A DNA stretch of 27,883 nucleotides, taken from a virus. Under the pieces are notes generated by a model. That model was not told the DNA's origin. It did no database searches and saw nothing but the letters and a program-made list of their open reading frames with translations. The stretch lies in the IMG/VR virus record IMGVR_UViG_3300046087_000036, positions 1 through 27,883 of that record. The stretch is one strand, 5' to 3'. Below are positions 1 to 27,883 of the stretch, one piece after another. Made by a program: the position numbers and the translations under genes. Numbering within the stretch: position 1 is the first letter of the stretch; each line of letters starts with the position of its first letter.

Positions 1-1
1 G

Positions 2-448
2 TTTGCAATAGTAGATGACACCGATTTTGACTTATTAAATTTATTTAAATGGCAGTTAAGTTCTGAAGGATACGCTACTAGACGCAAATTAGTAGGTGGG
101 AAACCACAAATAATCTCTATGCATAGATTTTTATTGGGATTATCTAAAGGGGATGGATTATGTGTTGACCATATCAATCTCAACAAAATTGATAACAGAA
201 GAATTAATTTACGAGTTTGTAGTAAGCAGCAGAACGCCATGAATAGAGATATACATATTAGTAATAAGTCAGGGTATAAGGGGGTATGTTACCACAAGCG
301 TAACAAAAAATACATGGCGTCAATAACTAAAAACAAAAAGAAAATTTGTATTGGATACTTTTCTTCTGCGCAAGAAGCTTCTGAAGCCTACAAAAAGGCT
401 TCAATTGATATTCATGGTGAATATTCAATTTTTAATAATAGTAAATAG
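2..448 (+). CDS. HNH homing-type endonuclease with AP2 domain (5' truncated by window)
   Basis: The reading frame is open from base 2, so the true start lies upstream; the first in-window ATG (119) falls inside the conserved domain and is not the start. The translated part reads as an HNH endonuclease: a lead-in with the Asp-rich DDTDFDLL segment and a KW..SSEGYATR stretch, then MHRFLL, the catalytic DHIN and DNRRINLR block (His and Asn of the HNH fold), followed by a C-terminal AP2-type DNA-binding segment (SGYKGV, then IGYFSSAQEASEAY and HGE). Such HNH-AP2 proteins are free-standing homing endonucleases common in phages and usually not needed for growth. It ends 11 bases before the next gene, whose Shine-Dalgarno overlaps its stop codon. 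Family assignment is confident; the cleavage site and whether it is active are unknown. Confidence 0.85.
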   Translation, partial: FAIVDDTDFDLLNLFKWQLSSEGYATRRKLVGGKPQIISMHRFLLGLSKGDGLCVDHINLNKIDNRRINLRVCSKQQNAMNRDIHISNKSGYKGVCYHKRNKKYMASITKNKKKICIGYFSSAQEASEAYKKASIDIHGEYSIFNNSK

Positions 449-459
449 AGGAGATTACA

Positions 460-804
460 ATGGATTTTAGTTTAGTTGGGGTGGCAATTGTGAATGCCCT
501 TCCCTATGTTCTTGGTGGTGCTGGTGCACTAGTATTTCTTAACTGGTATTTTAAGAATCCAGATAGTAAGTATACAAAGTATGTTCCCTTTGTAATACAG
601 GCTGTTAAGTTTGCAGAATCTAAGATTCCAGATGGTACACCTAATAAGAGCGCAGCTAAGGTAGATGCATTCTTGAAAGAATTTACTTCTCTCTATGAGA
701 AGAGTGCTAAGAGCACGATGCCAGAAGCTGTTAAAGAATGGGCGTTGCGTGTCAAAGAAATTGCTCTTCTAGAAGTTGAGAAATCAAAGAATCAGGTGAA
801 GTAA
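460..804 (+). CDS. Small membrane protein, holin-like candidate
   Basis: A 114-residue protein with a strong Shine-Dalgarno (GAGGAG, 448-453) seven bases before the ATG. Residues about 4-30 form one hydrophobic segment (VGVAIVNALPYVLGGAGALV) followed by a soluble, Lys-rich, probably helical tail. The central motif of Ala-Val-Lys-Phe-Ala-Glu followed by Lys-rich spacing (about residues 46-72) resembles the LL-H type phage holin family, which has one N-terminal membrane helix and an A-x-E-Q-like repeat region. That is a resemblance by eye only. If correct, it would oligomerise in the inner membrane and time lysis. The two small genes that follow fit a lysis cassette, but no endolysin is seen here. 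It could instead be a structural membrane-associated protein. Confidence 0.5.
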   Translation: MDFSLVGVAIVNALPYVLGGAGALVFLNWYFKNPDSKYTKYVPFVIQAVKFAESKIPDGTPNKSAAKVDAFLKEFTSLYEKSAKSTMPEAVKEWALRVKEIALLEVEKSKNQVK

Positions 805-848
805 AGGAGCATAACTCCCTAGCCTAAACTAGGGAGTTATACAATTTA
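803..848 (+). promoter_or_regulatory. Hairpin-spanned ribosome binding site
   Basis: A perfect 12-bp inverted repeat (arms 811-822 and 829-840, loop of six bases CCTAAA at 823-828) fills the gap between two genes. No T-run follows, so it is not a standard intrinsic terminator. A strong Shine-Dalgarno AAAGGAG (803-809) lies 39 bases before the next ATG (849), too far to work on the linear message. With the hairpin folded the unpaired distance is 1 + 8 = 9 bases, the normal spacing. A second possible Shine-Dalgarno (AGGGAG, 831-836) lies inside the right arm and would be masked when folded. The geometry is seen directly; the regulatory role is inferred from split ribosome binding sites of this kind known in T4 (gene 25 and gene 38). 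Confidence 0.65.
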
Positions 849-1094: not shown

Positions 1095-1095
1095 A

Positions 1096-2171: not shown

Positions 2172-4802
2172 ATGGCAGAAATTCCTCCCGGCGTAGTTGA
2201 AATATCCTTTCCTAGTCCCGGTAACGCTAAAAAATATGGTAATGTCACAATTAAGCATATCTACTCCAGTATTTTGCGCTCTAAAGAGCAAACTACTTCA
2301 AGTCTAGAGCTTTACGAACAAGCTTTAGGGTATGGAGTAGGTAAAAATGCTAGCACGGATAATTCTAAGCCTTCTAAACTTCCTAAGTTTTTCGTAAGTA
2401 ACATAGCACTAATTGGTAATGCTATGATTGCAAAGCCAGAAGCTCCTAATTTTATTAAGTATAGAGCTAACTTGGCTAGAAATGCCAATGCAATTTCTGT
2501 AGCAACATCTCTTACTGAACCAACTGGTGGGGCATACGGCAAGGTAGGTTCTGTATCTTTAATTGCTCCTACTACTGGAAATACTCTAACTACTGGTCCT
2601 CTCGGATCAAATGTATGGATTCCATTAGACGCACTTGAAACTATTAAGCCCTTTTATGAATGTGACGCTGGAATAGCTTTCACTAACTCTAGAGAAAGTA
2701 TAGAATGCTATATTTATTCAGATTTCGTTTTAAAGAAGAACCAACCATTTTCATTTATTTTTAGCATGGCTAGTTTGTTCCGCTCGGAACAAATAGATCA
2801 ATTACAGAATACCCCAAATGATCCAGATAATGAAGTCATTGCTGAAGAGGGTAATGATATCGAAACTAGGATTTCTCCTAGTATATCTATAAGTTGGGGA
2901 ATTGATTACAAATTAATACTGTATATAGATGGAACATGTACCCTTTTCTATAAGGGTTCACAGGTAGGTAAGAAATCCTCTATATCTGGCTATGATCCTA
3001 CTTCTGATTCTCCTGAAGTGTTAACCATATATCCTTTAATGAATTCTGTTTATGTATACAGAGGTGTGCCTTCAATTGAATCTACTGTTAAAAAACAGTT
3101 TGCTTCATTCAGCTTTAATGATCCTATAAATATAGAACCGGGTATTATAACGTTAGAGTTTAAAGGTTGTTACGGTAGCTTTAATTTTTCTCCTGTTATT
3201 CATCCAAGAAATGGATTACTTTATAGTCCGATTATGAAAGTTCCTCCCGGTACTGGTACTCCTCAGTATAATTCTTCCTTCGTGGGTAAAGTTGGTTCTG
3301 GAAGTAGAGGAAATAATCCAAAGATTCCAGATAAAAATGACAGAGCGGGCATATACAAATATCTTAAGGAATTTATTGGTGAAACTCCTTTTAAACTAGA
3401 AGCAAAGGGAGTAGGCTCAAATGGGTTTGCTTATCAGCTTACACTAGGTGTTAAGAATCCAATTCCTGACACTGCTGATGTTAACGCTGCTATTGACGGT
3501 ATACAAACTAATATTTACAGTCCAGCTATTTATAATTCTTCATTCACGTTTATTCAACAAGCTACCGGTTCAGGCGGTAGTGCAGGAGATATTTCGTCCG
3601 ACGATATTTTATCAGTTTGTGTTCAACAGTCTGTTGAAAGTGCCAGAGCTACTATTACGTTAGACAATCGTAACTATGACGGTAGTAGAGGTGGTAAGTA
3701 CCCCTCTTCAGAAGGGTTCACTGGTGTAAAGTATATTCAAATTAAGATGGGATACTCAGATAGCACCGTCGTGGTATTTACTGGATATACTTCTATCTGG
3801 AAACGTAGACGTTCTGGATCAACTTCTTCCACATTAGTTATTGAATGTGAAGATGTGACAAAGAAGGCACGGGAGCAGTTCGCAGTTAATCTACCATACT
3901 TTGACGGTTGGTGTCATATTGGTGCTATGGCCTATTTGCTTAAAGAAGCTGGGTTTTCTGCATCGAATACAAATACTCCAACTGTTTCTGGTTCTGTAGA
4001 TCAGATGAATGGTGGGTGTTTTGACGGGCATTCGGATTCACAGTCCTCTTCAGATACTATTCACGCAGTACTTCCTTTAGCTATGTTAGGTGTTGGTGAA
4101 CCTGCCTACAATTTTTCCATGGGAACCCCCCTATGGAGTTGTATGCAGAGAATTAGAGAATTTACTAATTGGTATTTATACCCAGATCATGAAGGTAATA
4201 TTGTCTATCAACCACCTAGTAGTATTTTAAGTTCTGGAAGTGCTAGAACTTTCAGAGAAGTCGATCAGGTTGGTAATTTTGACGAAATTTTAAATGACAT
4301 TGAAGAGGTTATTGATACTGCTGAGATGCGTAATGCTGTGATTGTACAGGGTAATACTTGTGTCTATAATCAAGACAATCCTGAATTTTCACAGTGGGCT
4401 ACTCATGTTCATATTAAATCCGCCTTCCCAGATAAGCAGAATTCTGACGATCCATTCTTTGCTCCATATCCAAGAATGGCCTTTATAAGAAATCCAAAAT
4501 TTGAAGATGTAAATAGAACTAGAGCTAATGCTGCCGAAATATTTAGAAGACTTACTAGAGATAGAAGTACTCTTTCCTTCTCTGCGTGGGGACAGTTAGA
4601 CTTACACCCCTATGATTTAATTAAGATTAATGAAAATATTATGAATGAAACAGGGGCAAACGGTAAAGATTACGTAGTAGCATCACATACACTAACAGCT
4701 AATGGTGAGGACCACACCATTATGAGTACAATTAATTGTGAAAGATTAGATTCTTCGGCTCTCACCTACGATCCTAATCTTCCACCGGGGAGACGTGAAT
4801 AA
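2172..4802 (+). CDS. Large tail/baseplate hub-like structural protein
   Basis: An 876-residue protein directly abutting the preceding stop codon. Residues about 480-560 have the look of a tail hub (gp27/gpD-like) beta-barrel: an Asp-rich turn (TLDNRNYDGSRGG), then IKMGYSDSTVVVFTGY, then TLVIECEDVTKKARE. A second typical segment (about 651-682) reads LWSCMQRIREFTNWYLYPD followed by a Gly-Asn turn and IVYQPP, a pattern common in phage hub proteins where a helix precedes a short beta-hairpin. The N-terminal 400 residues contain lectin- or concanavalin-like beta segments (PFSFIFSMAS, KLILYIDGTCTLFYKG) that could bind glycans or other tail proteins. It is followed by fibre-like genes, as expected at the tail tip. 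The hub identity is inferred from pattern, not from a database match. Confidence 0.55.
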   Translation: MAEIPPGVVEISFPSPGNAKKYGNVTIKHIYSSILRSKEQTTSSLELYEQALGYGVGKNASTDNSKPSKLPKFFVSNIALIGNAMIAKPEAPNFIKYRANLARNANAISVATSLTEPTGGAYGKVGSVSLIAPTTGNTLTTGPLGSNVWIPLDALETIKPFYECDAGIAFTNSRESIECYIYSDFVLKKNQPFSFIFSMASLFRSEQIDQLQNTPNDPDNEVIAEEGNDIETRISPSISISWGIDYKLILYIDGTCTLFYKGSQVGKKSSISGYDPTSDSPEVLTIYPLMNSVYVYRGVPSIESTVKKQFASFSFNDPINIEPGIITLEFKGCYGSFNFSPVIHPRNGLLYSPIMKVPPGTGTPQYNSSFVGKVGSGSRGNNPKIPDKNDRAGIYKYLKEFIGETPFKLEAKGVGSNGFAYQLTLGVKNPIPDTADVNAAIDGIQTNIYSPAIYNSSFTFIQQATGSGGSAGDISSDDILSVCVQQSVESARATITLDNRNYDGSRGGKYPSSEGFTGVKYIQIKMGYSDSTVVVFTGYTSIWKRRRSGSTSSTLVIECEDVTKKAREQFAVNLPYFDGWCHIGAMAYLLKEAGFSASNTNTPTVSGSVDQMNGGCFDGHSDSQSSSDTIHAVLPLAMLGVGEPAYNFSMGTPLWSCMQRIREFTNWYLYPDHEGNIVYQPPSSILSSGSARTFREVDQVGNFDEILNDIEEVIDTAEMRNAVIVQGNTCVYNQDNPEFSQWATHVHIKSAFPDKQNSDDPFFAPYPRMAFIRNPKFEDVNRTRANAAEIFRRLTRDRSTLSFSAWGQLDLHPYDLIKINENIMNETGANGKDYVVASHTLTANGEDHTIMSTINCERLDSSALTYDPNLPPGRRE

Positions 4803-12792: not shown

Positions 12793-13796
12793 TGAAGATT
12801 AACGAATGTATTCCTATTCTTATAGACCGGTTTGATATGAAGTCGTTTTTAACGAATTCTGGGTACAGATATAGAAACATCGGTGGTAAGACTGGCAATT
12901 TACTTTCTACATGTCCATTTTGTAATAAAGAGTGGCATTGTGGGATATCTTTTGATAAAAAGAGATTTGGGTGTTTTCGATGTAATAAGACAGGGGACTT
13001 CTTTAAGCTTCTACAGAAGGTACTAAATACCGGATACCTAAATACTATAGAATTTTTAAAACTTGGAATTAGTTCTCAAGTTCTAGATGTAAAGTATATC
13101 GACAAGATTATTGAAACATACAAAGAAAATGAGGACTTAGAAGGTAAGCTTAAGCCAGTAGCTTTACCAGAACATTATCAATCTCTTAGAAATAAAAGAA
13201 TTCCTTATTTAGACGTAGGTAGAAAGTATCCAATTCCTCAGGAATTAGTTCATTATCACCAAATGGGTTTTTGTACACAAGGGTTCTATGCTAATCGGCT
13301 TATAGTATGCGATGTAAATGAAGAGGGGCAGGTTATATACTGGGTAGCAAGAGATATCACAGGAAAAGTTCCCAAGAGTTGGAAACTTCTTAATCCTAAC
13401 GCAGATTCTTTAGGTGTCGGGAGTGCTGATCTTTTATTTAATTATGCAAGAGCTAAAGAGTATGAAAGTATCGCTATTACAGAAGGTGTGTTTGACGTAA
13501 TGTATGCAGGAGAAGACGTAGTAGCTACATACGGTACAGGACTTAAGAAGAATCATATTTATTGGTTGCTGAAGGCTAGATTTAAAGAAGTAACTCTTAT
13601 GTATGATCCTGATGTATCCATGGAAAAGTTGGAAGATAGTGCGAGAGAAATATCCCAGCACATACCTTGTCGAATATGTAAACTATCTAAAGGTGATCCA
13701 GATGAACACTCTAAAGAAGAACTTAAACAGTTACGGGATTCTGCAAAGATTTTTACAGGATCATTAGTAGATAGGATTACGGTATGTCTGAATTAA
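12792..13796 (+). CDS. DNA primase (zinc finger plus TOPRIM)
   Basis: A 334-residue primase that would lay RNA primers at the fork together with the adjacent DnaB-like helicase. Near residues 40-62 is a CHC2-type zinc-binding site: a CPFC pair, an intervening beta-hairpin (CGISFDKKRFG) and a CFRC pair. The TOPRIM domain shows the catalytic Glu in ITEGVFDV (near 229) and the metal-binding DPD in LMYDPDVS (near 271). It is shorter than bacterial DnaG (about 580) and lacks the C-terminal helicase-binding domain, as usual in phages. There is no visible Shine-Dalgarno before the ATG, which shares a base with the preceding stop, so it is probably translationally coupled. Confidence 0.85.
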   Translation: MKINECIPILIDRFDMKSFLTNSGYRYRNIGGKTGNLLSTCPFCNKEWHCGISFDKKRFGCFRCNKTGDFFKLLQKVLNTGYLNTIEFLKLGISSQVLDVKYIDKIIETYKENEDLEGKLKPVALPEHYQSLRNKRIPYLDVGRKYPIPQELVHYHQMGFCTQGFYANRLIVCDVNEEGQVIYWVARDITGKVPKSWKLLNPNADSLGVGSADLLFNYARAKEYESIAITEGVFDVMYAGEDVVATYGTGLKKNHIYWLLKARFKEVTLMYDPDVSMEKLEDSAREISQHIPCRICKLSKGDPDEHSKEELKQLRDSAKIFTGSLVDRITVCLN

Positions 13797-14410: not shown

Positions 14411-17072
14411 AAAGGCTCCAGCAGTAGATTTTGATACTTTTACTCTTTCAACGTGCGAACGGTGTAAATTATGTAAAAGTAGAACCAATGTAGTCCCACC
14501 AAAGATTGTTAAAGATTGTCTTATAATGTTTGTGGCTGAAGCTCCCGGTCAAACGGAAGATCAATTTGCTACAGAACCTCTTATTGGGGAAAGTGGTCAG
14601 CTTCTAGATCGTATTCTACAAGAAGTAGGTATTGATAGAAGTCAGTGTAGTATTATCAATACTGTCCAGTGTCGTCCTCCAAAGAATCGTCCTCCAGAAA
14701 GAGACGAATTGGATGCATGTGCACCTATTTTAAATCATTACATTCAGCAAGCTAATCCAAAGATTATTGTTCCACTTGGATCAACAGCTTTAAAGAAGGT
14801 GTGTGGTAATTTTAAGATTACTACTACCAATGGTAAGCAATTAGAGTCTCCTAGATATCCCGGTATTAAGTTCGTACCTGTAATTCATCCTTCTTTCGCT
14901 CTACGTGATCCACGAAATGTAGAACAGCTTCGGTATGGATTAAAGAAGGTAAAAGAATTAGCAGATTCTATTGTTACTGGACAGCCGCTAAACCGTAAAG
15001 GTAAAGTAATTTATATAGACACCCTTGACAAATTTAAAGTAATGATTAAGGATTTAATATCCAAGCCCTATTTTGCTCTTGATATTGAAACCACTTCATT
15101 TAGGTTTCTTCACGGTGAGATTATAAGTATTGGGTTCTCCAATACAAAAGGGTTATCTTACGTACTTCCATGGGTTATTGGGGATGAAGAGTTTTATAGA
15201 GTCTGTAAGAGCGATATAATTACTAGTAAGAAACGTTCTCCTATAACAGACATTAAAGAATTCTGTAATTTGTACAAACTCAACGTTCCTAAATTCTTTT
15301 GGGAAGGTACTGAGGTAAAGGATACATTACGAGCTTTATTATCCTATCCAAAGATTGCCAAGATTTTACATAATCATATGTTCGATTGTAAATTCTTGGA
15401 TGCTGCTGGTTTGACGTTAGAAGGTCAGATATACGACACTATGATTATGCACCATATGTTGGACGAACAGAAAGGCTACCACGGTCTAGATGATTGTTGT
15501 CTTAGATTTACAGATTATGGTGAATACTGGAAGGGATTAGATAAATATCTAGTCTCAACTGATGAAGCTAAAGATACTTACGCTATTATTCCAATTGAAG
15601 AATTAGCAGAGTACAATGGTACAGATGCGGATGTAACTCTTCAGATATTTGAAATTTTCCATCCTATGCTGGAAGCAGAAGACCCCAAGTTCTTACCACT
15701 GCTAAATACCTTCCTTATGCCTGTAGCCAAGATGTTAATGGATACAGAACGGAACGGGTGTTTAATTGATGAAGCGTGCCGTAAGACCACTGAAGATATC
15801 CTAACTAAGGAAATTGAACGGTTAGATATCAAACTTAAAGAGTTTACATCTAATTTCGTTCCAACTCCTTCTGCTAGTCAGTTAAAGACTAAGAAGATAC
15901 CAACGGAACTTAATTTTAACTCTTCAGATCAGTTGGCAGAATTCTTATTTAAGCATCTTAATCTGCCTGTAATAAATAAAACAGAGAAGGGTAAAAGTTC
16001 AACAGATGGTGACACACTTGAAGTGTTGGCTAAGCTTCATGAGTTTCCACGACTACTCCTAGATAGACGAAAGAAACAGAAACTTCTTTCTACCTACGTT
16101 ATCGGTATTAAGAGTCAAATATGGTTAGATGGTAAGGTACATCCTAACTTTAATATTTGTGGTACTGAGACGGGTAGATTATCTAGTTCTAATCCTAACG
16201 CTCAGAACTATCCTAAGAATAATGATGCACTGATTGCTATCGGTGTAAACATTAAGAATATGTACATTATAAGTGATCCAGATTACGTTATGGTGGAAAC
16301 GGATTACTCACAGGCTGAACTTAGACTGATAGCAGAGTACTCTAGAGATAAAAACCTCTACAAAGCTTTCAAAGAGCAACGTGATCCACACGCAGAACTA
16401 GCAGTCCGTCTTTACCATAAAGATAGAATTGCTGAGATGGAAGCTGGAACTATCGTAGCTAAAGATATTGTTACAGATGAAGAGCGTCAAAGAGGAAAGA
16501 CTGCCAACTTCTCACTCTGCTACGGCAAAATGCCAAAGAACTTCGCAGAAGAAGAAGGAATTCCTTACGAAGAAGCAGTTTACATTTATAACGTATTCTG
16601 GCAGACTTATGAGGATATTGCACGTTGGAGAGAAGAGAAATTACAAGAGGCTAGAATGAATGGCAGCTTGCAGTCTTTCTTCGGTCGTAAGAGACGGTCT
16701 AAGAAGATTAATCATACGGACCAGTTCCTACGTGGTGAAGCCGAACGTGAATTGCTTAATTTCGTGATTCAGTCCCAAGCTTCAGACTACACCTTATACT
16801 CTACCTTAAAAGTACTTAAGATATGTAAGGAAAAGGGTATTAGGGCTAAGACGATGTTATTCGTGCACGATTCCGCAGTCTACATGGTGCATAGAGACGA
16901 TCTACAAGCGTTTTTAACTATACTACAGGATACTATGGCTCATCCACCCGGTATAACAATTACCATGGAGAGCGACGTTAAGGTGGGAACCCGTTGGGGT
17001 TCTCTAAAGAAGTGGTTTTGTAATAATGGTTTATGGCAAGAAAAAGCTGAAAAAGCCAAAGTTGCAGCTTGA
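14364..17072 (+). CDS. Uracil-DNA glycosylase / DNA polymerase I fusion
   Basis: A 902-residue replicative polymerase with three parts. Residues about 30-200 are a family 4/5-like uracil-DNA glycosylase: CERCKLC and a second Cys pair spaced C-x15-C (starting CRPPKNRPPER) for an iron-sulfur cluster, motif AEAPGQTED, and the HPSFALR motif. Residues about 215-470 are a 3'-5' exonuclease with DIE (D240/E242), NHMFDCKF (near 337) and YNGTD (near 417). Residues about 540-900 are a family A polymerase: motif A VETDYSQAELR (Asp near 646), motif B RQRGKTANFSLCYG (near 708) and motif C FVHDSAV (near 835). All catalytic residues are present. Motif B has Ser after the conserved Phe, where Gly is usual. 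No 5'-nuclease domain is fused. The only good start is 14364, inside the previous gene. Confidence 0.9.
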   Translation: MDQIQIVPLTTKPHSKKAPAVDFDTFTLSTCERCKLCKSRTNVVPPKIVKDCLIMFVAEAPGQTEDQFATEPLIGESGQLLDRILQEVGIDRSQCSIINTVQCRPPKNRPPERDELDACAPILNHYIQQANPKIIVPLGSTALKKVCGNFKITTTNGKQLESPRYPGIKFVPVIHPSFALRDPRNVEQLRYGLKKVKELADSIVTGQPLNRKGKVIYIDTLDKFKVMIKDLISKPYFALDIETTSFRFLHGEIISIGFSNTKGLSYVLPWVIGDEEFYRVCKSDIITSKKRSPITDIKEFCNLYKLNVPKFFWEGTEVKDTLRALLSYPKIAKILHNHMFDCKFLDAAGLTLEGQIYDTMIMHHMLDEQKGYHGLDDCCLRFTDYGEYWKGLDKYLVSTDEAKDTYAIIPIEELAEYNGTDADVTLQIFEIFHPMLEAEDPKFLPLLNTFLMPVAKMLMDTERNGCLIDEACRKTTEDILTKEIERLDIKLKEFTSNFVPTPSASQLKTKKIPTELNFNSSDQLAEFLFKHLNLPVINKTEKGKSSTDGDTLEVLAKLHEFPRLLLDRRKKQKLLSTYVIGIKSQIWLDGKVHPNFNICGTETGRLSSSNPNAQNYPKNNDALIAIGVNIKNMYIISDPDYVMVETDYSQAELRLIAEYSRDKNLYKAFKEQRDPHAELAVRLYHKDRIAEMEAGTIVAKDIVTDEERQRGKTANFSLCYGKMPKNFAEEEGIPYEEAVYIYNVFWQTYEDIARWREEKLQEARMNGSLQSFFGRKRRSKKINHTDQFLRGEAERELLNFVIQSQASDYTLYSTLKVLKICKEKGIRAKTMLFVHDSAVYMVHRDDLQAFLTILQDTMAHPPGITITMESDVKVGTRWGSLKKWFCNNGLWQEKAEKAKVAA

Positions 17073-17096
17073 ATTTTTGGTCAAAACTGTTATAAT
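17069..17096 (+). promoter_or_regulatory. Promoter B (sigma-70-like, extended -10) for the recombination operon
   Basis: The -35 is TTGAAT (17069-17074, overlapping the polymerase stop codon), the spacer is 16 bases and the -10 is TATAAT (17091-17096), preceded by TGT to make an extended -10. The spacer has the same six fixed positions as promoters A and C. The predicted start (about 17103) leaves a very short leader containing AGGAG (17105-17109), seven bases before the ATG at 17117, so this message would have a normal ribosome binding site. Confidence 0.8.
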
Positions 17097-17116
17097 CCTT
17101 AAACAGGAGATTTGTA

Positions 17117-17491
17117 ATGAAAAAGAGTAGAAAGACGTTTCACAAAGAATCTGACAAGTTGGATGGTGTGGTCAAGGTTCTATCTAATTTAAAAGAAGTA
17201 GACCTTTACTATAGTCCTCAAAGTTTAAAATTTACCAATACAATGGTAATTAATGAGGCACTTAGTCCGTTAGTCTCTCGTCTTCTTTCAGAATATTCTG
17301 AAAAACTAAAGCACAGTCCCAATATCAATTCTACTAAAGACACTCTAGAGGAATTGATTCAAAAGGCTTCAGCGATTAGAAATTCTTTCACTCTTTTGGA
17401 CGCTTCTCTCGGTGAAGAAGCATCTACACCAAAAACAACTTTAACATTCACCTCTTCAAAGGGTGCTAAATTGGAAACGGAGTTTAAGTAA
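17117..17491 (+). CDS. Unknown protein, first gene of the recombination operon
   Basis: A 124-residue protein of no family I can recognise. It begins with a basic patch (KKSRKTFHKES), then a probably helical body (residues 15-100, with VVKVLSNLKEVDLYY and LVSRLLSEYSEKLKH) and a Thr/Ser-rich end. There are no Cys, membrane segments or nucleotide-binding motifs. It has the best ribosome binding site of the operon (AGGAG, seven-base spacing) and is the first gene after promoter B, so it should be made strongly and early. The ssDNA-binding protein gene begins on the next base after its stop. A role in DNA metabolism is likely only from context. Confidence 0.65.
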   Translation: MKKSRKTFHKESDKLDGVVKVLSNLKEVDLYYSPQSLKFTNTMVINEALSPLVSRLLSEYSEKLKHSPNINSTKDTLEELIQKASAIRNSFTLLDASLGEEASTPKTTLTFTSSKGAKLETEFK

Positions 17492-18508
17492 ATGGGTTAC
17501 GGTAAGACTGATCAGAATGCTTTCGCAGTAAATAAGAAGTTCTTTAAAGTACCTGAAGCTGGTACAACAGTTTTCTTCTGTCCACCATGGAATGAGAAGG
17601 AAACTAAGCCATTTAGAGAGTGGACTGTCCACTACAACGTAGCAGAATATCCTATTGCTTGTTTAAAGCCCTTTGGACAACCCTGTCCAATGTGTGCGGC
17701 GAACGATGAATTGTATAAGCAGAAGGAAAATAAAGCTGCTCAAGACCTTTCTAAGCTGATCTACGCTAAGAAGAGCTACCTTTACAATCTAATTCCTGAC
17801 GTAAAGTTCGCGCCTAAGGCTCCCGGTTCTCTACCAACAGACTTAGAAGTCCTTGTAGCTGAAACTAAAGTAGTAGATAGTGTAATGGTAGAACCTGAAG
17901 TAAAGATGTTTGCAGTTAGTGCGACTCTTCACAAGCTAATTGGAACGTTCTTCGCTTTCAATGGGGATATCTTCGACCCTACTTGTGGTAACGCAGTGAT
18001 GTTGCAGAAGGTTAAGACCACTGGTAATAAGGATGAAATTGCCAGAATTCAGCCTACTGCATGGCCTAAGAAGGCTAAGCTTGACCCTAAGGCGTTAGCT
18101 CTCTTAGATAAGATGCATGATCTAAATGCTGCTTATGAACTTCCCGACTTAAAGGTTGTTCAAGACCTTCTAAATGTCAAGATGGCCTCTATTCGGTCAA
18201 CTCAGACTTATACAATTAACAATGCTCCACAGCAGAATCCACAGTATCAATATCCAACTCAGCAGCAACAGGTTCAACAGCCAGTACAGCAACCAATGCA
18301 GCAACAGCCTGTTCAGACGATTCAACAGCCTACTCATGTTGCACAGACTTCTACAACTGTTCCTGTACAGCAAGCTCCACAGAGTGCACCAGTAGTTGAA
18401 ACAGTTACGGTAGCAACTCCTGTTGTTCCAACTAATACTTCAGCGGGTGACTTAGAAGCGTTTGAACGATTCCTACAACTTCAAAAAGAAGGTAAGTTAC
18501 CTAAGTAA
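17492..18508 (+). CDS. Single-stranded DNA-binding protein, gp32-like candidate
   Basis: A 338-residue protein that probably coats ssDNA at forks and recombination intermediates. The first 230 residues show the pattern seen in gp32-like SSBs: a start with aromatic residues (FFKVPEAGTTVFFCPPW), then CLKPFGQPCPMCAANDELYK (near residues 56-75), where a spaced Cys set could bind zinc, followed by KKSYLYNLIPDV. Residues about 246-300 are a Gln/Pro/Val-rich linker with repeats of Q-Q-x-V-Q-Q-P, and a short amphipathic C-terminus (DLEAFERFLQLQKEG) may be the partner-binding tip. Unlike most SSBs the tip is not strongly acidic. Its place before a RecA-like gene supports the call. It shares a base with the next gene (TAATG). 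Confidence 0.6.
   Translation: MGYGKTDQNAFAVNKKFFKVPEAGTTVFFCPPWNEKETKPFREWTVHYNVAEYPIACLKPFGQPCPMCAANDELYKQKENKAAQDLSKLIYAKKSYLYNLIPDVKFAPKAPGSLPTDLEVLVAETKVVDSVMVEPEVKMFAVSATLHKLIGTFFAFNGDIFDPTCGNAVMLQKVKTTGNKDEIARIQPTAWPKKAKLDPKALALLDKMHDLNAAYELPDLKVVQDLLNVKMASIRSTQTYTINNAPQQNPQYQYPTQQQQVQQPVQQPMQQQPVQTIQQPTHVAQTSTTVPVQQAPQSAPVVETVTVATPVVPTNTSAGDLEAFERFLQLQKEGKLPK
18229..18330 (+). repeat. CAG/CAA-rich coding repeat (Gln-rich linker)
   Basis: A low-complexity stretch inside the ssDNA-binding protein gene, made of imperfect CAG/CAA units (CAGCAACAGGTTCAACAG and variants) encoding Gln-Gln-x-x-Gln-Gln-Pro repeats. It forms a probably disordered linker between the DNA-binding core and the C-terminal tip. 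Such tracts may change length by slippage. Confidence 0.6.
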
Positions 18509-18906
18509 TGGATCAAGAACTTAAAACCTTCATCTCTACGCACCTTGACTACTTAGACCGTCTAAAAAATGGTCTAAGTAGTCAGGATGCTGACGTAATA
18601 GCTGCTCAATTCCTTAGAGCGGTCGCTAGGCTCTCTGCTTATCGGCTAGAAGTGTTATCTAAGGAATACAGTGCTTGTTCTTCAGTTTACAGCGTTACTA
18701 GACATAAAGCTTGGGATGAAGCTCAATCTAGTACTGCTAAGGCTAAAGAAATAGAAGCTGAAGCTAATTCAGAACTTCTTAGAGCAAGAGAAGCAGAAGA
18801 AACCGCAGAACACAACTTACGGTACATTAATTCACTTATTGATGTATTTAATAACGCCCATGTTCAATTTAGACAGATAAGTTCTAAGATTAATAACGGA
18901 TACTAA
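18508..18906 (+). CDS. Coiled-coil protein between SSB and RecA genes (recombination mediator candidate)
   Basis: A 132-residue, highly helical protein. Residues about 58-115 form a strong coiled coil rich in Ala and Glu (STAKAKEIEAEANSELLRA). The N-terminal 50 residues contain two shorter helices. There are no enzymatic motifs. Size and position, directly between the ssDNA-binding protein and the RecA-like recombinase, are like those expected for a UvsY-type mediator (T4 UvsY is 137 residues) that helps load recombinase on coated ssDNA. I see no sequence similarity strong enough to claim homology. Codons 13-27 lie inside a 16-bp RNA stem. The ATG shares a base with the preceding stop and lacks a strong Shine-Dalgarno at normal distance. 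Confidence 0.65.
   Translation: MDQELKTFISTHLDYLDRLKNGLSSQDADVIAAQFLRAVARLSAYRLEVLSKEYSACSSVYSVTRHKAWDEAQSSTAKAKEIEAEANSELLRAREAEETAEHNLRYINSLIDVFNNAHVQFRQISSKINNGY
18544..18586 (+). other. 16-bp intragenic stem-loop
   Basis: The arms 18547-18559 and 18571-18583 are a perfect 13-bp inverted repeat with an 11-base loop. The stem continues outward by T-A (18546/18584), T-G wobble (18545/18585) and C-G (18544/18586), giving 16 pairs. It starts 36 bases after the ATG at 18508. No T-run follows, so it is not a standard terminator. Possible roles are slowing translation, setting the SSB-to-RecA ratio, protecting or processing mRNA, or a DNA operator; the sequence alone does not decide. Confidence 0.65.
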
Positions 18907-18907
18907 A

Positions 18908-19801
18908 ATGCCTCCAAAAGAAACACCAGCAACTCCAGTAAAACTCAACTTCGCAGACATAATTAATAAAGTAAAAGAAAATCAAGAGGGTGCTAAGAAG
19001 CCTTTCGATTTTGGTACAGTTTCCGATCTAGAGGAATTGGGACCAGATGATTATCTGAAGCTTGGAGATTGGTGGAGTAAGCCTACTAATCTTCCCGGTT
19101 TGCCTTTTGGTCGCATGGTGTTAATTGCAGGAGATTCTGATTCTGGTAAATCTTCCTTTGCTATTCAGTCTATTAAAGCTGCTCAGCAACAGGGAGTTGG
19201 TACGATTTACATTGAAACAGAAAATAAAACTACTGCTGCTGATTTCGTTAACTGGGGTGTTGACCCACAGCAGATTATCATGAAGCAATCGTTCGTTCTA
19301 GAACAGATGTTTGAAACAGCTATTCAGGCTTGGGACGAAATTGTTAAGGTAGCTCCCAATGCTCCTTTATTAATTGTCATTGATTCAATGGGTAATACTG
19401 TTACACAGTTTGATGAAGACTTAGACCTAACGGATAATACGAAACCCGGTGGTAAAGGTTCAGCATTACGTCGGTGTCTAAACAAGTTAGCTGGTAAACT
19501 TATTAATGCTAAGAATAAAGTAAGCGTACTCCTTATTTCTTACACTTATGACAATATTGGTTCTCCCGGTCGTACTAATGCTGGTGGTAAGGCATTAGGA
19601 TTCTTTCCTTCTCTAATTTATCAGACTAAGCGGATTGGTTGGATGGAAAAGACTGAATCTGGAAATAAGGTTAGGGTTGGGGCTAAAGTTAAGTGGGATT
19701 TATTTAAGAATCATCTTAAGAAGACTTCCCCCGGCTTAAAGAACATTGTTTTTGGAATTACTGATGACGGTATGAGCTTTGTGGAAAAAGACTCTGAATA
19801 G
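18908..19801 (+). CDS. RecA/UvsX-like recombinase, short form
   Basis: A 297-residue strand-exchange protein. Walker A is GDSDSGKSS (near residues 74-82), the catalytic Glu is in TIYIETENK (near 100), Walker B is LLIVIDSMG (near 154-162), and a Gly-rich L2-like loop lies in SPGRTNAGGKALGF (near 219). It would form filaments on ssDNA and promote homologous pairing for repair and recombination-dependent replication. It is about 55 residues shorter than E. coli RecA and close to 100 shorter than UvsX, apparently lacking the C-terminal domain, and the N-terminal 70 residues do not clearly match the RecA polymerisation helix. It starts one base after the previous stop and its TAG overlaps the next start. 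Confidence 0.8.
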   Translation: MPPKETPATPVKLNFADIINKVKENQEGAKKPFDFGTVSDLEELGPDDYLKLGDWWSKPTNLPGLPFGRMVLIAGDSDSGKSSFAIQSIKAAQQQGVGTIYIETENKTTAADFVNWGVDPQQIIMKQSFVLEQMFETAIQAWDEIVKVAPNAPLLIVIDSMGNTVTQFDEDLDLTDNTKPGGKGSALRRCLNKLAGKLINAKNKVSVLLISYTYDNIGSPGRTNAGGKALGFFPSLIYQTKRIGWMEKTESGNKVRVGAKVKWDLFKNHLKKTSPGLKNIVFGITDDGMSFVEKDSE

Positions 19802-20421
19802 TGTTTAAAAATAAAGAAGAAGAGTATCAAGAACTCTTCGACAACGAAAAAGATATTGAAAATCGTAAAGACCTTTGCTCTTATATTGGAGACTTCTTTG
19901 AAGAGGCATCTGCTCAGATTTTAAAGGCAGATAGACTTCGTAACGCTCGCTATAAGGATATTAATCCTGATTTAGCGAACAAAGAACGTTCCATATTCTA
20001 CGAGTCCAAAGCTAGTAATAAAACTTCTGGTGGGGCAGCAGTTAAAGTAGACCAATTAAACTGCTATCTAGACTTCACCAGATATTACATTCCAGATGTA
20101 GACCAAAAAGACCCCATATTTAACGTTAAAGTATTCTATATTTTTTGGTTCTATGAACTTCCTTCTATGAAGTATAAGAGTCAGAAAATACTTAGACGTG
20201 ATCTAGCTGAATGTGACAAAGAATTATACTTACTTTCCGTTGATGCAGTCAACACTATAGTTACTTTAAAGCCTAATCAAATTTGTACTAGAGTAAAGAG
20301 CAAGCAGATAGATGATTTTGCTCTTAAAATAGGCGATGAATACGTTACTGAGTATATGACTGCTCCGTTTAAAGTCTACGATCAAGTTCTTCCTGATATG
20401 CTAGTGACTAAGGTGCTATGA
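19801..20421 (+). CDS. PD-(D/E)XK nuclease-like protein
   Basis: A 206-residue protein with a GTG start that shares a base with the recombinase stop (TAGTG). Residues about 53-75 carry a nuclease-like signature: INPDL, ten residues, then FYESKAS (Glu-Ser-Lys), followed by a conserved-looking Gln (VDQLNCYLDF). This PD...ExK...Q arrangement is that of PD-(D/E)XK nucleases, where Asp and Glu bind metal and Lys positions water. An upstream helix with Glu residues (YIGDFFEEASAQIL) could supply the family's helix-1 Glu. The C-terminal half is beta-rich and unknown. Context among RecA and SbcCD-like genes suggests a recombination or end-processing nuclease. The motif is short, so the call is tentative. 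Confidence 0.5.
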   Translation: MFKNKEEEYQELFDNEKDIENRKDLCSYIGDFFEEASAQILKADRLRNARYKDINPDLANKERSIFYESKASNKTSGGAAVKVDQLNCYLDFTRYYIPDVDQKDPIFNVKVFYIFWFYELPSMKYKSQKILRRDLAECDKELYLLSVDAVNTIVTLKPNQICTRVKSKQIDDFALKIGDEYVTEYMTAPFKVYDQVLPDMLVTKVL

Positions 20422-21410
20422 AGTATTTAATACTCCCAGACCTTCATCTTGAGCTTACATGGGATGGATTAAATAGAAGTAATGATGTATGGGACTTCCT
20501 CACCTCTATAATTCCAGAAGCAAAACTAGCAGATAGGATCATCTGGCTAGGTGATATATTTGACAATCCAGTTGTATCCCACTCCATTATCGCAAATTTT
20601 ATGGCTGTACTCTCCAAATTCCCCAATAAAAACATAATCCTACGTGGTAATCACGATGGTATCTTTGAAACTAAAAGAGGCTCCCCTCTAGAAGAGATAG
20701 ATGTATCCCATTTAGCTAAGGTGGTAGACAAGCCTACAATTATAGATGGTATGTTATTTCTACCTTACATGGAATATGCTAAGGTAGAACCTATTCAAGG
20801 TAATTTCAAATGGGGATTTTCTCATTTAGATATCGCTGAAGCTATTCCCGGTATGGAAGCTGAGATTTCTAGAAGTTCCAAGTGCCAGTTACCTGATTGG
20901 GCATACAAATCTTGTGAAAAGATCATTTCAGGACATATTCATAAGCCACAGACTGTAAGAAACGGTCAAGTGATCATTTTAGGATCAGTTATTAAAGTAT
21001 CTACGACTGAAGCCAACGATCAAAAGGTATATGGTATTCTTGACACTGATACCAACATCCTAGAATTAAAGCCAATTGCGACTAGAAATATACGTGACTA
21101 TAAAGTAACCTACGATGAACTATTTAATCCAGCTAGTTTGGTAGTTGACCCTACAGACATTGTATCAGTTAAATTAACTGTACCTCATCATTTAGCTCAT
21201 AAGTTTGATTTTAGAGCATTAGAGAAGCGGCTAAGAGATTCTTGCTACCATCTACGATATGAAGTGGATGTAGTTAAAGAGAAGTTCATACGACACAAGA
21301 ATGTAAACGTAAATGCAACAGATTTAGATATATTTAGTGCCTACGTAATGTCACAGGGTGTACAAAACCCAGAAGCAATAATTGAAGAGTTTAAAAAGGT
21401 GATAGAATGA
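20418..21410 (+). CDS. SbcD/Mre11/gp47-like nuclease subunit
   Basis: A 330-residue metallophosphoesterase. The phosphodiesterase motifs are complete: PDLHLE (D8, H10), GDIFDNP (near 45), RGNHDG (near 76), FSHLD (His near 136) and SGHIHKPQ (near 172). The C-terminal 100 residues form a capping domain. With the SbcC-like protein encoded two genes on it would make an Mre11-Rad50 type complex that opens and resects DNA ends, as T4 gp46/gp47 do. Its ATG overlaps the preceding stop by four bases (ATGA) and its own stop overlaps the next ATG the same way. The E. coli SbcD is about 400 residues; this is the compact phage form. Confidence 0.85.
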   Translation: MKYLILPDLHLELTWDGLNRSNDVWDFLTSIIPEAKLADRIIWLGDIFDNPVVSHSIIANFMAVLSKFPNKNIILRGNHDGIFETKRGSPLEEIDVSHLAKVVDKPTIIDGMLFLPYMEYAKVEPIQGNFKWGFSHLDIAEAIPGMEAEISRSSKCQLPDWAYKSCEKIISGHIHKPQTVRNGQVIILGSVIKVSTTEANDQKVYGILDTDTNILELKPIATRNIRDYKVTYDELFNPASLVVDPTDIVSVKLTVPHHLAHKFDFRALEKRLRDSCYHLRYEVDVVKEKFIRHKNVNVNATDLDIFSAYVMSQGVQNPEAIIEEFKKVIE

Positions 21411-21937
21411 GTAATATACGACGCATTAATTTCTATGGTGCTCCCGGTTCAGGAAAAAGTACTTTAGCTAAGCAGATATGTGCTCTTTTAAACAGAGAAG
21501 GTCATGACGCTGAATTAATTCAAGAATGGATTAAGAAGTGGGCGTATGAAGGTAGAAAGCCAGATACTTGGGACCAGAATTATATATTTGCCTCTCAGAT
21601 GTTTTTAGAGACTGATTTACTTAAACGAGTTAATTACACAGTTGCAGACGGTTCACCTCAATTGTGTTCTGCTTATGCTCGTTTTTACAATTGTCCTTAT
21701 TGGGAGCAATTAGAAGAAATTGCTAGACAGCAAGAAGAAGCCTTCCCAGCTATTAACTTTTGGGTTACGAGAGACCATCCTTACCAGAATAAGGGACGAT
21801 ATGAAACTGAAGAACAATCTAACGAAAAGCATGTAGTGTTACGTCAGAATCTTAACGAATATGAATTTATAGATATTAAGAGCACTTACAATCCTGCATT
21901 ACTAATGGAAAACTACATTCTACCCAATCTAAAATGA
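21407..21937 (+). CDS. P-loop nucleoside/nucleotide kinase-like protein
   Basis: A 176-residue P-loop protein. Walker A is GAPGSGKST (residues 11-19), followed by a helix (LAKQICALLNREG), an EWIKKWA segment where kinases of this type have a substrate-binding lid, and a YTVADGSPQLCSAYA strand (near 78-92) resembling the D-S-P or D-R-S motif of deoxynucleoside kinases. The C-terminal part has an Arg-rich lid (TRDHPYQNKGRYETEE). It resembles the AAA_28/NadR-like kinase group. The likely substrate is a nucleoside, nucleotide or similar small molecule, but it cannot be named. It lies between the two Mre11/Rad50-like subunits with four-base overlaps on both sides, so it is made in step with them. 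Confidence 0.65.
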   Translation: MSNIRRINFYGAPGSGKSTLAKQICALLNREGHDAELIQEWIKKWAYEGRKPDTWDQNYIFASQMFLETDLLKRVNYTVADGSPQLCSAYARFYNCPYWEQLEEIARQQEEAFPAINFWVTRDHPYQNKGRYETEEQSNEKHVVLRQNLNEYEFIDIKSTYNPALLMENYILPNLK

Positions 21938-24072
21938 AAATTAAACGATTAGAAATCTACAATTACGGTCCCTTCAAAGGTGAAAACGTAATTGAGTTTC
22001 CAGATAACGACTTTTCTATCTATTTTATTCAAGGCACCTACGATGGTGATCCTGCGAAGAGTAATAGAGCGGGTAAGTCAAGCTTTGTAGAATGTATCCG
22101 CTACTTGCTATTTGGAGACGTTAGAGCTAAGAAAGAAATTAATCTTATCCATACTGGACAGGATAAGATGTACATTAAAGGTATTGTTAATCTTAAAGGT
22201 ATAGATGTTACAATTACACGTGGACGTACTTCAGAGAATAAGCCTATCTTTGATATTGAAGGCACCAAAGAGATTTTAAAATCAGCCAAAGAAAAAGAGT
22301 TACAAGACCTACTAGGATACACTTGTGAAGACTTTGTTGCTACTAACTGTATTAAACAGGGAGATATCAGTGGATTCATGCTCCTTGGACCAGCTGAGAG
22401 AAAGAAAGTCATTCTTGGATGGTTTAATCTGGAAAAGTGGAAAACCTATGAAGAAAAGGCTAAAGCTAGATACAATTCTTTAGGCAAAGAGATAGAGACT
22501 TTAAATACCTCTAGAAGTACACTAGAGGTTCAATTGCATCAAATTAGTATTGCCGATCTTTCTTTATTGAAGGGAGCAATTGAATCCACTCAAAAATCAT
22601 TAGATGAAGTTAATAATCAGATAGCAGATAAAAAAGCTGAACTTAAGAACTATTCTAATCTAGAAGATACTAAGCAGAAATTACAAGGTCTACAGAGTCA
22701 GTTTAATTTTACTGAAGTTCAGCTACAAACAACTTATGGTAAGGTGTCACTGTTAACTAGTGATATTAAGACTGCCCAGAATAATATTAATACTTCCAAC
22801 GATCTAGAAAAGACTTTAGGGGATTCTAATGAGATTTCAAAGAAGCTAGAAGAGCTTCAAGGGATTAAACAGCCTTTACAGTCAGAAGTTGCAGTTGTAG
22901 ATAGTCAGATAGGTGATAAACAGAGATTGCACAAAACTCTATGTTCTTTCTCTGGAGTATGTCCTATTGATTCTAAGACATGTGACAAGGGTAAAAGAAT
23001 CCCAGACTACGCTACTCAGATAGAAAACGAAATTAAGGCTCTACAGGCACAGAAGATTGAGAATACGGAGAAGCTAGTACGTTTAAACAACGTCCATGGT
23101 CAATTTCAGCAATTACTTAATAATATTGCCTTAGATAAGAATAGAATTGCTCAGCTACGTAGAGTTGACCCTACCCTATTAGAAGATTCAATGGCTTCAG
23201 CTAAGGAATTACTTGATAATTTATTAAAGACTAAAGAAGATATTACAAAGCAGATAGAAGAGTTATCTGGTAAGGTTAAAGAAGATCAATATGGAGTTAT
23301 TCGTTCTCAGCTTAGTGCACTAGAGAACGAAAGAAACATAAGACTACATAAATACAACGAGAGTGTATCGGCTCTCGCACGGGCAGAGCAAGATATTACA
23401 AATTCAGATGCTTTAAAAGCACAGATAATACAGAAGCAAACTAAGCTTATAGAGCTACAAGAAGAATATTACAGAATGATGTATGTGTGCTCCCTTTTAA
23501 ATAAGGATGGAATACCTTCTCTGTTGATTGAGAATTCAATATCTGAAGTAGAAGACTTTGCTAACGTAATCTTAGACTCTATCTCTCCCGGTTTTAAATT
23601 AGAGTTTACTACCTTTAAAGAATTAACTTCAAAAGAGACACACTGTACAGTATGTGGTAATCCATTTGGCTCAGAAGCTATTTGTCAGAAGTGTCGGTAT
23701 GGTAGACGCAGTAATAAGATAAAAGAAGAGATTGATTTGAAGGTAATGACTAGTTCATTACAGGAACTAGAGTTTGAATTAGACTCTGGCGGTGGTCAAG
23801 TGCTTATTTCTCTCGCTCTTCGCCTAGCTCTATCTAAACTACTTTCAAAGAACTTTAATAGTAATGGTATATTAATTCTAGATGAAGTATTTGGCTCACT
23901 AGACGAACCAAACCGTAATCTAGTTTCTAGATTATTATTTAATCGTATGAAAGACATAATGAATGTAAGTCAAGTATTTGTTATTACTCACTGTAGCCTT
24001 AACGAATCCTCATATAATAGAATTATGATTAAAAGATTTGATGGATTTTCTAAAATTCACCTTGAAAAATAA
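21934..24072 (+). CDS. SbcC/Rad50/gp46-like ATPase subunit
   Basis: A 712-residue SMC-type ATPase, partner of the SbcD-like nuclease. Walker A reads SNRAGKSSF (near 46-54), with a typical FxxCIRYLLFGD helix after it. Residues about 180-540 are coiled coil. Near the middle (about 337-351) the usual CxxC zinc hook is replaced by C-x5-C-x6-C (CSFSGVCPIDSKTC). The ABC signature is LDSGGGQVLISLALR (near 620) and Walker B with D-loop is ILILDEVFGSLDEPNRN (near 647). An extra CTVCGNPFGSEAICQKC zinc ribbon sits near 572-588, just before the signature region. ATP-driven opening of DNA ends for the nuclease is the expected role. It starts by ATGA overlap and ends in front of promoter C. Confidence 0.85.
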   Translation: MKIKRLEIYNYGPFKGENVIEFPDNDFSIYFIQGTYDGDPAKSNRAGKSSFVECIRYLLFGDVRAKKEINLIHTGQDKMYIKGIVNLKGIDVTITRGRTSENKPIFDIEGTKEILKSAKEKELQDLLGYTCEDFVATNCIKQGDISGFMLLGPAERKKVILGWFNLEKWKTYEEKAKARYNSLGKEIETLNTSRSTLEVQLHQISIADLSLLKGAIESTQKSLDEVNNQIADKKAELKNYSNLEDTKQKLQGLQSQFNFTEVQLQTTYGKVSLLTSDIKTAQNNINTSNDLEKTLGDSNEISKKLEELQGIKQPLQSEVAVVDSQIGDKQRLHKTLCSFSGVCPIDSKTCDKGKRIPDYATQIENEIKALQAQKIENTEKLVRLNNVHGQFQQLLNNIALDKNRIAQLRRVDPTLLEDSMASAKELLDNLLKTKEDITKQIEELSGKVKEDQYGVIRSQLSALENERNIRLHKYNESVSALARAEQDITNSDALKAQIIQKQTKLIELQEEYYRMMYVCSLLNKDGIPSLLIENSISEVEDFANVILDSISPGFKLEFTTFKELTSKETHCTVCGNPFGSEAICQKCRYGRRSNKIKEEIDLKVMTSSLQELEFELDSGGGQVLISLALRLALSKLLSKNFNSNGILILDEVFGSLDEPNRNLVSRLLFNRMKDIMNVSQVFVITHCSLNESSYNRIMIKRFDGFSKIHLEK

Positions 24073-25330: not shown

Positions 25331-26531
25331 AGTATTATGGATTTCAGACAGTCCCAGAATTCGTCATGTAGGACAGAGTGTTGTAACCAGAGCAGTCCTT
25401 TCCAGACTTCAAGGAATGGGATATAATGTAGAAGCTCTAGGATTCCTAGACTCTAAGATTAGACCAGAAGACAAAGTAGAAGTTCCATATAATGTAATTG
25501 ATTGTCACCGTGGTGAGATGCATGATGTAAAAAGGATGGTAGAGTATATTACTGCTTCCGATCCTGAAGTAGTAATAATGTCACATGATCCATGGGTTTT
25601 ACCTGTAATTCCTCAGCTACGTCAGATGTTCCCCAAGAAGAGATTTATCGGATATCTTACCTTAGATGGTGCACCATGTTATTACGCTTGGCGTAATATT
25701 ATGAAGGGTTATCATAAGGTTGTTTCTCCAACACGATTTGGAAAGAGTACAGTTAATCAGCGTTGGGCAGATGTAGATATTGATGTTGCTCCTTATGGTG
25801 TCGATCATGCACAGTTTCATCTACCACAACAGGGTAAACCAAAACTAAAAGAAGATATTTCTGACAGAAATCATCATCTCGGTGAATTTGGCTCCCTTCG
25901 TAATAAGTTTGTTGGTCTTTATATTGGTGCTAATCAAGACCGTAAGAATTTAGGTGTCATTCATGAAGCATGGCGTGAGTTTGAAAAGGGTAAAGAAGAT
26001 CATGTAGTATTAATGATGTTCGTACATTCAGCTTCACTCACTGAAGAGGCTGGAGCTTATGATCTTGTAGTCTTTACCCAAGATACACAGACAATGCGGA
26101 TTATTAATGCTCCACAACCTGATGATATTATCGGGATGTATACAGCAGCAGCAGACATATTGGTACATCCTAGTGCAGGAGAGGGCTGGGGACTAACAGT
26201 TTCCAACGCTATGGCCTGTGGGACCGTCCCTGTCATTCTTCCTTATGCTGGCGTAACTGATTTCTGTACTCCTGAGAATTCATATGGTGCTCCCTTTATT
26301 GAGCATGTAGGTGGATTCCATGTGCACAGAGCAATCACTACAGCGGATGGTCTCTGCGATACGCTAAATCATGCCTACGCTAATCCTAATGATCGAGTAG
26401 CTAAGGCATATAGAGCAATTGAGACTGCTCAAGGATTAAACTGGGATATTACTGCCCAAATTCTAGACAAGAATATTAAAGAAGTATTGGCTATGCCAGA
26501 TAATGGTATCTTCTTCTCAAAGGTGTGTTAA
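25323..26531 (+). CDS. Glycosyltransferase, GT4-like
   Basis: A 402-residue GT-B type glycosyltransferase. The N-terminus MPKVLWISDSPRIRHVGQS is the usual opening strand and Gly-rich loop, so the ATG at 25323 is preferred over 25287 and 25308, which add residues with no family match; GGTGGA lies eight bases upstream. The C-terminal domain has LYIGANQDRKNL (near 200) and the donor-binding E-x7-E region HPSAGEGWGLTVSNAMACG (near 281-299), typical of retaining GT4 enzymes. It would transfer a nucleotide-activated sugar, in the cytoplasm, to a protein, DNA base or glycan. The acceptor cannot be read from the sequence. Its stop shares a base with the Gmd-like gene (TAATG), and a GDP-sugar donor is therefore plausible. 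Confidence 0.75.
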   Translation: MPKVLWISDSPRIRHVGQSVVTRAVLSRLQGMGYNVEALGFLDSKIRPEDKVEVPYNVIDCHRGEMHDVKRMVEYITASDPEVVIMSHDPWVLPVIPQLRQMFPKKRFIGYLTLDGAPCYYAWRNIMKGYHKVVSPTRFGKSTVNQRWADVDIDVAPYGVDHAQFHLPQQGKPKLKEDISDRNHHLGEFGSLRNKFVGLYIGANQDRKNLGVIHEAWREFEKGKEDHVVLMMFVHSASLTEEAGAYDLVVFTQDTQTMRIINAPQPDDIIGMYTAAADILVHPSAGEGWGLTVSNAMACGTVPVILPYAGVTDFCTPENSYGAPFIEHVGGFHVHRAITTADGLCDTLNHAYANPNDRVAKAYRAIETAQGLNWDITAQILDKNIKEVLAMPDNGIFFSKVC

Positions 26532-27799
26532 TGTCTACAAAGTACATAAACAGTAAGAAGGAAGCAACAGAATTGAATACTTTATGCGCTGATGTTGGAA
26601 ATAATGTTCGTAGTCCAAGAGCATTTGTAACAGGTGTCAGTGGACAAGTAGCTTCCTACCTAGTTGAATATCTTCTAGAAAAGGGCTATGAAGTAGTAGG
26701 TCTGAATAGAAGAAAGTCGGTAGACAATTTATCTAACCTAGCCTACATTAAAAGTGATAAATTCTCCTTAGTTGAAGGGGATTTGACCGATGCAGTATTC
26801 ATTAACAATTACTTCTGTAAAAATAAGTTTGATGAATTGTACAATCTAGCAGCGCAGAGTCACGTACATACTAGTTTTGAACAGCCACAATTGACATTTG
26901 AAGTGAACACTATAGGAACCCTCAACCTTCTGGAAGCTATTAGAAATCATATGCCAGAATGTAGAGCGTACTTCGCTTCAACTTCAGAAATGTATGGAAG
27001 TTCAAAACCACCACAGAATTTAGACACTACTTTTCATCCACGTTCTCCTTATGGGTGTGCTAAATTAGCTGCCCACTGGCTTGTAGACGTATATCGTGAT
27101 TCTTATAAGCTTGACGTTGCTTGTGGAGTCATGTTTAACACAGAGTCCCCTAGACGTGGCGATAATTTCGTTACTAAGAAGATTGTTAACTACATTAATA
27201 AATATAGAGAAGCATGTCTTTCTAATACTTGGGAGAAAGTTCCCTCTCTAGAATTAGGTAATTTAGATGCTAAGCGTGATTGGTCTCATGTTAAGGACTC
27301 AGTAGAAGCTATTTATAGAATTTGTAATCAAAGAGATTATTTTACGATTACGTGGGGACATGAAATTGATCTTAATATAAAGTTTGATAAGTTTAGTCAT
27401 GAAGGTATAGATAGAAAAGTTATCACGGCAGGAACACAGGAAAAGCCAGCAACAGCAAAAGAAATTGCTGATTTGCAAGAACAGTTATCTAGACCAATGA
27501 AGTATAAAGATTACACTTTTGGTTCGGGAAAGGCTTACTCAGTAAGAGAGTTTTTGAAAAGTGCACTAGAGTTTGCTTTTCATTCTAAGAATAGATTTGA
27601 ATTTGTAGATTCTGGGTTACAAGAAAGAGTAGTTGATCTTCACACTGGTCGAGAAATTGTAGTTATCAGTCCTAAATTCTTCAGACCAGCAGAAGTAGAT
27701 TATCTTTTAGCGGATAGTACAGTAATTAAGCAGGAATTAGGTTGGGAACCCAAAATTAGTTTTGACGATCTTGTTGCGGATATGTTTCTAGGTAAATAA
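26531..27799 (+). CDS. gmd: GDP-mannose 4,6-dehydratase-like enzyme
   Basis: A 422-residue short-chain dehydrogenase/reductase that would convert GDP-mannose to GDP-4-keto-6-deoxymannose, the precursor of fucose and rhamnose sugars. Signatures: VTGVSGQVASYL (NADP-binding, near 32-43), NLAAQSHVHTSFEQP, STSEMYGSS (near 149), the catalytic YGCAK (Tyr/Lys near 174-178), FNTESPRRGDNFVTKKI and, near the end, FRPAEVDYLLADST and LGWEPK. Bacterial Gmd has about 370 residues; this protein has a 30-residue N-terminal extension and an insertion of about 55 residues (bases about 27341-27505) before YTFGSGKAYSVREF. The start is ATG 26531 (AAGGTG six bases upstream, overlapping the previous stop), not GTG 26525. 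Confidence 0.85.
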   Translation: MSTKYINSKKEATELNTLCADVGNNVRSPRAFVTGVSGQVASYLVEYLLEKGYEVVGLNRRKSVDNLSNLAYIKSDKFSLVEGDLTDAVFINNYFCKNKFDELYNLAAQSHVHTSFEQPQLTFEVNTIGTLNLLEAIRNHMPECRAYFASTSEMYGSSKPPQNLDTTFHPRSPYGCAKLAAHWLVDVYRDSYKLDVACGVMFNTESPRRGDNFVTKKIVNYINKYREACLSNTWEKVPSLELGNLDAKRDWSHVKDSVEAIYRICNQRDYFTITWGHEIDLNIKFDKFSHEGIDRKVITAGTQEKPATAKEIADLQEQLSRPMKYKDYTFGSGKAYSVREFLKSALEFAFHSKNRFEFVDSGLQERVVDLHTGREIVVISPKFFRPAEVDYLLADSTVIKQELGWEPKISFDDLVADMFLGK

Positions 27800-27810
27800 A
27801 GGGATAAAAA

Positions 27811-27883
27811 ATGAATCTAACGTTATTCGGACCTTTTCGCGGTCTCACTGGGTATGATTCCTTAGTTCGTACTTATATTGAGG
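27811..27883 (+). CDS. 5' end of a further gene, possibly a glycosyltransferase
   Basis: The frame opens at ATG 27811 with AAGGGA just upstream and runs off the window. The 24 visible residues (MNLTLFGPFRGLTGYDSLVR, then TYIE) resemble the opening strand and Gly loop of GT-B glycosyltransferases. This suits its place after the GT4-like and Gmd-like genes, but too little is visible for a firm call. Confidence 0.5.
   Translation, partial: MNLTLFGPFRGLTGYDSLVRTYIE

Follow-up and report, generated by a model that had tools for sequence, protein, structure and literature searches.

Restriction-site avoidance as a mechanism has been documented for decades. Elimination of sites is an established phage strategy against orthodox Type II recognition sequences, described for non-temperate double-stranded DNA phages, and among almost 4,000 prokaryotic viruses surveyed, roughly one genome in ten had lost such sites entirely or almost entirely (Rusinov et al. 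2018, PMC6286503). EcoRII, a Type IIE enzyme for CCWGG, needs at least two sites for efficient cutting (PMC4081073), so that even a partial loss of sites would help against such an enzyme. RGATCY is the word modified by BAMTA208_6525, a Type II methyltransferase from Bacillus amyloliquefaciens TA208 (PMC3459991), and a Type II system of this specificity therefore exists in Bacillus. Here we describe a stretch of viral DNA of 27,883 nucleotides, hereafter the window, in which both of these words are absent.

The window is an entire IMG/VR record, listed there as a linear and possibly fragmentary sequence, with a G+C content of 36.6% and 27 genes that run from tail genes through a replication module to a PDDEXK protein, a glycosyltransferase and a GDP-mannose dehydratase. 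The replication module comprises a SNF2-type helicase, a DnaB-like helicase, a primase, a family A polymerase, a RecA/UvsX-like recombinase, a metallophosphatase and, by a weak match, a single-strand binding protein; a protein of 712 residues may be SbcC-like, judging from its position and a distant match in phage G. The block formed by the DnaB-like helicase, the primase, an uncharacterised gene and the polymerase (11443..17072, plus strand) supplied the queries for IMG/VR profile searches, which found the relatives G001, L007, L087 and L119. G001, a contig of 194,473 nucleotides, is the only long relative found; it shares 17 of the 27 genes with the window, in collinear arrangement, with 45% identity in polymerase and DnaB. 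The window encodes a tail protein and replication genes of phage type, and G001 a portal and a terminase, which together mark a tailed double-stranded DNA phage. G001 also keeps the adjacent glycosyltransferase and GDP-mannose 4,6-dehydratase genes of the window (25287-27799), at 42% and 46% identity, a pair that possibly serves sugar modification of the virion or of the host surface. Shine-Dalgarno-like words are scarce inside the genes of the window (CCTCC/GGAGG, 7 against 25 expected) and of G001 (CACCTC and CTCCTC each 0/42 observed/expected, strands summed), and such a word stands upstream of 9 of the 27 window genes against a background of 6%.

The initial annotation, made from the letters of the window, had reported that CCAGG and CCTGG are missing from it while the overlapping tetramers are frequent, and a direct count bears this out, with zero of each pentamer beside 89 CCAG, 61 CAGG, 43 CCTG and 98 CTGG. 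A maximal-order Markov model, which takes the counts of these tetramers into account, expects 23.7 CCWGG sites (z = -5.9) and ranks CCWGG as the most depleted pentamer of the window. Nearly the same expectation is reached when synonymous codons are permuted across the 27 genes with all proteins and codon usage preserved, as 3,000 such shuffles give a mean of 23.4 (sd 3.1) and never fewer than 12 sites. The earlier tally of proline codons is exact for the 17 Pro-Gly pairs (15 CCC, 2 CCG and neither CCA nor CCT), and its claim that CCA and CCT are the usual proline codons also holds, these two making up 327 of the 382 proline codons of the window (CCA 169, CCT 158, CCC 49, CCG 6). The largest share of the expected sites does fall on Pro-Gly pairs (CCW|GGN, 14.5 of 23.4), as would suit a codon-pair or compositional bias unconnected with restriction. 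The other two frames, in which 3.1 (NCC|WGG) and 5.8 (NNC|CWG|G) sites are expected, are nevertheless empty too, 8.9 expected sites in all: throughout the window CC never precedes a Trp codon, and AGG never serves as an Arg codon after NCC. The loss thus attaches to the DNA word itself rather than to Pro-Gly codon pairs. GGWCC, which has the same composition as CCWGG, is found 16 times against 16.2 expected, and CCSGG occurs 17 times, 2.5-fold above expectation, an excess that fits the replacement of CCWGG by a synonymous neighbour. Five of these CCSGG sites (2187, 2217, 3138, 3246 and 4785), all CCCGG or CCGGG, lie within 2187..4789 on the plus strand, and eleven CCCGG sites lie within 14544..23591 on the same strand, two intervals that hold no CCWGG.

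A systematic scan of palindromic words, degenerate ones included, reveals a second eliminated word that the initial annotation had overlooked. RGATCY, that is AGATCT, AGATCC, GGATCT and GGATCC, is absent from the window against 32 ± 5 sites expected by codon shuffling, and again all three frames are empty (11.6, 3.5 and 17.0 expected). GATC in other contexts is plentiful, with 77 GATC in total, and this, together with the enrichment of CCSGG, rejects a general avoidance of GATC or of CCNGG. Since GGWCC persists, as does GATC outside RGATCY, since every frame is empty for both words, and since zero is never reached in the synonymous shuffles, we reject the codon-pair or compositional bias considered above and assign it virtually no probability. 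Two further words are reduced but present in the window, SAGCTS, whose reduction is strong (2 against 16 expected), and GGCC, which is partly retained (7/20 observed/expected). CCWGG (0/23.4) and RGATCY (0/32) thus both lie below one tenth of expectation with at least 15 sites expected, and both are palindromic orthodox Type II sites, CCWGG being the site of EcoRII and RGATCY that of the Bacillus methyltransferase.

We considered two routes by which the words might be lost other than through cutting by a host. Dcm-type methylation of the cytosine in CCWGG, followed by deamination to CTWGG/CCWAG that outpaces restoration, would deplete CCWGG specifically, and in G001 CTWGG/CCWAG stands at 1.26-fold its expectation, a mild excess that makes a small contribution of deamination possible in that genome. 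In the window, however, these products are not in excess (70 against 68.3 expected), deamination is unable to give the CCC-GG codons of 15 of the 17 Pro-Gly pairs or to turn CCA into CCC, and the loss of RGATCY is left unexplained. We therefore reject this route for the window and hold it to be very improbable. A solitary Dcm-type methylase without a nuclease would not generate selection against CCWGG. The second route is a nuclease of the phage itself that recognises both words and so purges them from the genome that encodes it, and the window does encode a free-standing HNH endonuclease with an AP2 DNA-binding domain, of the homing-endonuclease type (119-448), and a PDDEXK_15 protein (24671-25330). 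Homing-type enzymes such as the HNH-AP2 proteins have long targets, the PDDEXK protein finds its PHROGs matches among RusA-like resolvases, and a specificity of 5-6 bp would be unusual for either kind of protein, so that we consider a role for the phage's own nucleases scarcely credible. PADLOC, run on ten window proteins, returns just generic helicase and homing-endonuclease matches. As to self-protection by a phage methyltransferase, searches for the three Pfam families PF00145, PF01555 and PF02086 find none in the window, itself a fragment, or in G001.

Both losses are shared with the distant relative. Over its whole contig G001 has 3 CCWGG against 205 and 8 RGATCY against 144 expected under an order-2 Markov model, and in its coding part 2 against 83 and 8 against 112 expected by codon shuffling; the eight RGATCY survivors in the coding part are all of the non-palindromic forms AGATCC/GGATCT, with AGATCT at 0/42 and GGATCC at 0/14 (observed/expected, here and below). 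L007 and L119, short fragments with about 80% nucleotide identity to G001, contain neither word (CCWGG 0/5.7 and RGATCY 0/3.1 in L007, 0/5.6 and 0/5.1 in L119). L087, whose polymerase is the most similar to that of the window among the fragments (56% over 241 aa), counts against a purge of sites in that it is not depleted (CCWGG 1/2.2, RGATCY 3/4.0); its retained sites suggest that host more than lineage may determine the trait, with its 4.6 kb being too short for certainty. These sites, and the fact that no CCWGG or RGATCY enzyme was linked to a host, would also suit a relic in which an ancestor was purged by restriction and the present host has since lost the enzymes. The absence nevertheless spans a deep divergence, about 45% protein identity between the window and G001, as well as the divergence of about 20% in nucleotides between G001 and L007 or L119, and without selection sites would reappear; this persistence makes a relic less likely, and we regard it as improbable.

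G001 is depleted in further palindromes, CTGCAG (0/43), TTCGAA (0/47) and SAGCTS (1/96), and its lineage may thus have met several restriction systems. The depletion of SAGCTS in the window and G001 includes the non-palindromic pair CAGCTC/GAGCTG, and we know of no catalogued Type II enzyme with that specificity. A separate uncultured phage contig of 24.5 kb (L061/G002), which shares its IMG/VR dataset number with L087, shows CCWGG at 0/32, CTAG at 0/20, CYCGRG at 0/22 and RGATCY at 3/29; two N6_N4 methyltransferases are encoded on it. Among 144 other viral contigs, which were gathered through the resemblance of their polymerase, primase or helicase and so do not form a random sample, CCWGG falls below 0.1 of expectation in 7, RGATCY in 33 and both in 5; two of these five are Bacillus phages by nucleotide match.

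Protein and megablast searches yielded only distant relatives among cultured phages, and scans of genome contigs, from which no close relative emerged, gave a single weak match in Desulfovirgula (30% over 69 aa). The best cultured matches of the polymerase, helicase and portal are largely Bacillus phages of the SPO1 group and phage G, at 27-30% identity. Among cultured phages the clearest example is the Bacillus subtilis phage BSP38 (Herelleviridae, Bastillevirinae; 150 kb), which is likewise all but free of both words (CCWGG 1/195, RGATCY 0/186) but is only distantly related to the window, with a DnaB that is 23% identical. BSP38 also differs in its other words, as GGCC is a third eliminated word there (0/170), and SAGCTS, scarce in the window, is normal (190/190). 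Rctr197k, whose portal is distantly related to that of G001, has normal counts of both words (CCWGG 386/421, RGATCY 167/179). The double loss in BSP38, the RGATCY methyltransferase of B. amyloliquefaciens and the matches to Bacillus phages together hint at a host among the Bacillota, a reasonable but weak guess.

We propose that the window very probably derives from a tailed double-stranded DNA phage, presumably of virulent type, that has been purged of sites for at least two orthodox Type II enzymes, one recognising CCWGG and the other RGATCY. The hosts of the lineage would carry, or would long have carried, an enzyme of EcoRII/PspGI/MvaI-like specificity for CCWGG and a second of BstYI/XhoII-like specificity for RGATCY. 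Each site in unmodified phage DNA entering such a host would put it at risk of a double-strand cut, so that variants that lose sites would survive better, and a genome without sites would give the enzyme nothing to cut. Removal would be mostly synonymous, through the exchange of CCA/CCT-GG for CCC-GG or a change of an outer base in RGATCY. The selection against CCWGG proposed at the outset is supported by its independence of reading frame, by its specificity, by the lack of any excess of deamination products in the window and by its sharing with a relative of about 45% identity. The EcoRII/Dcm-like label then given to the putative enzyme is drawn from its recognition sequence.

The loss of two independent words, shared across such a distance, argues for strong and probably lasting restriction selection on an uncultured lineage. 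The missing words may be read as a fingerprint of the host's enzymes and would thereby provide a lead to the host. A bolder proposal, which we put forward as an unlikely one, is that the window, G001, L007 and L119 form a clade of large uncultured phages with a fixed fingerprint of eliminated words (CCWGG, RGATCY and probably SAGCTS, with CTGCAG and TTCGAA in addition in G001) in which the restriction systems of a single host group are recorded. If this is true, the SAGCTS counts of 2/16 in the window and 1/96 in G001 would point to a Type II specificity beyond those that we recognise as catalogued.

Compared with the known systems, the recognition sequence of EcoRII is the very word missing from the window; no such enzyme was found, and whereas EcoRII can be escaped with few sites left, the window has none. 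The specificity of BAMTA208_6525 matches the other missing word, with nothing to link B. amyloliquefaciens to this phage. The window shares with the surveyed cases of avoidance (PMC6286503) a near-complete loss (observed/expected below 0.1) of orthodox Type II palindromes from a double-stranded DNA phage; it differs from them in that two words stand at exactly zero within a fragment and that host and enzymes are only inferred. The window is thus a strong case of double elimination, in an uncultured lineage, of the well-documented kind known as restriction-site avoidance.
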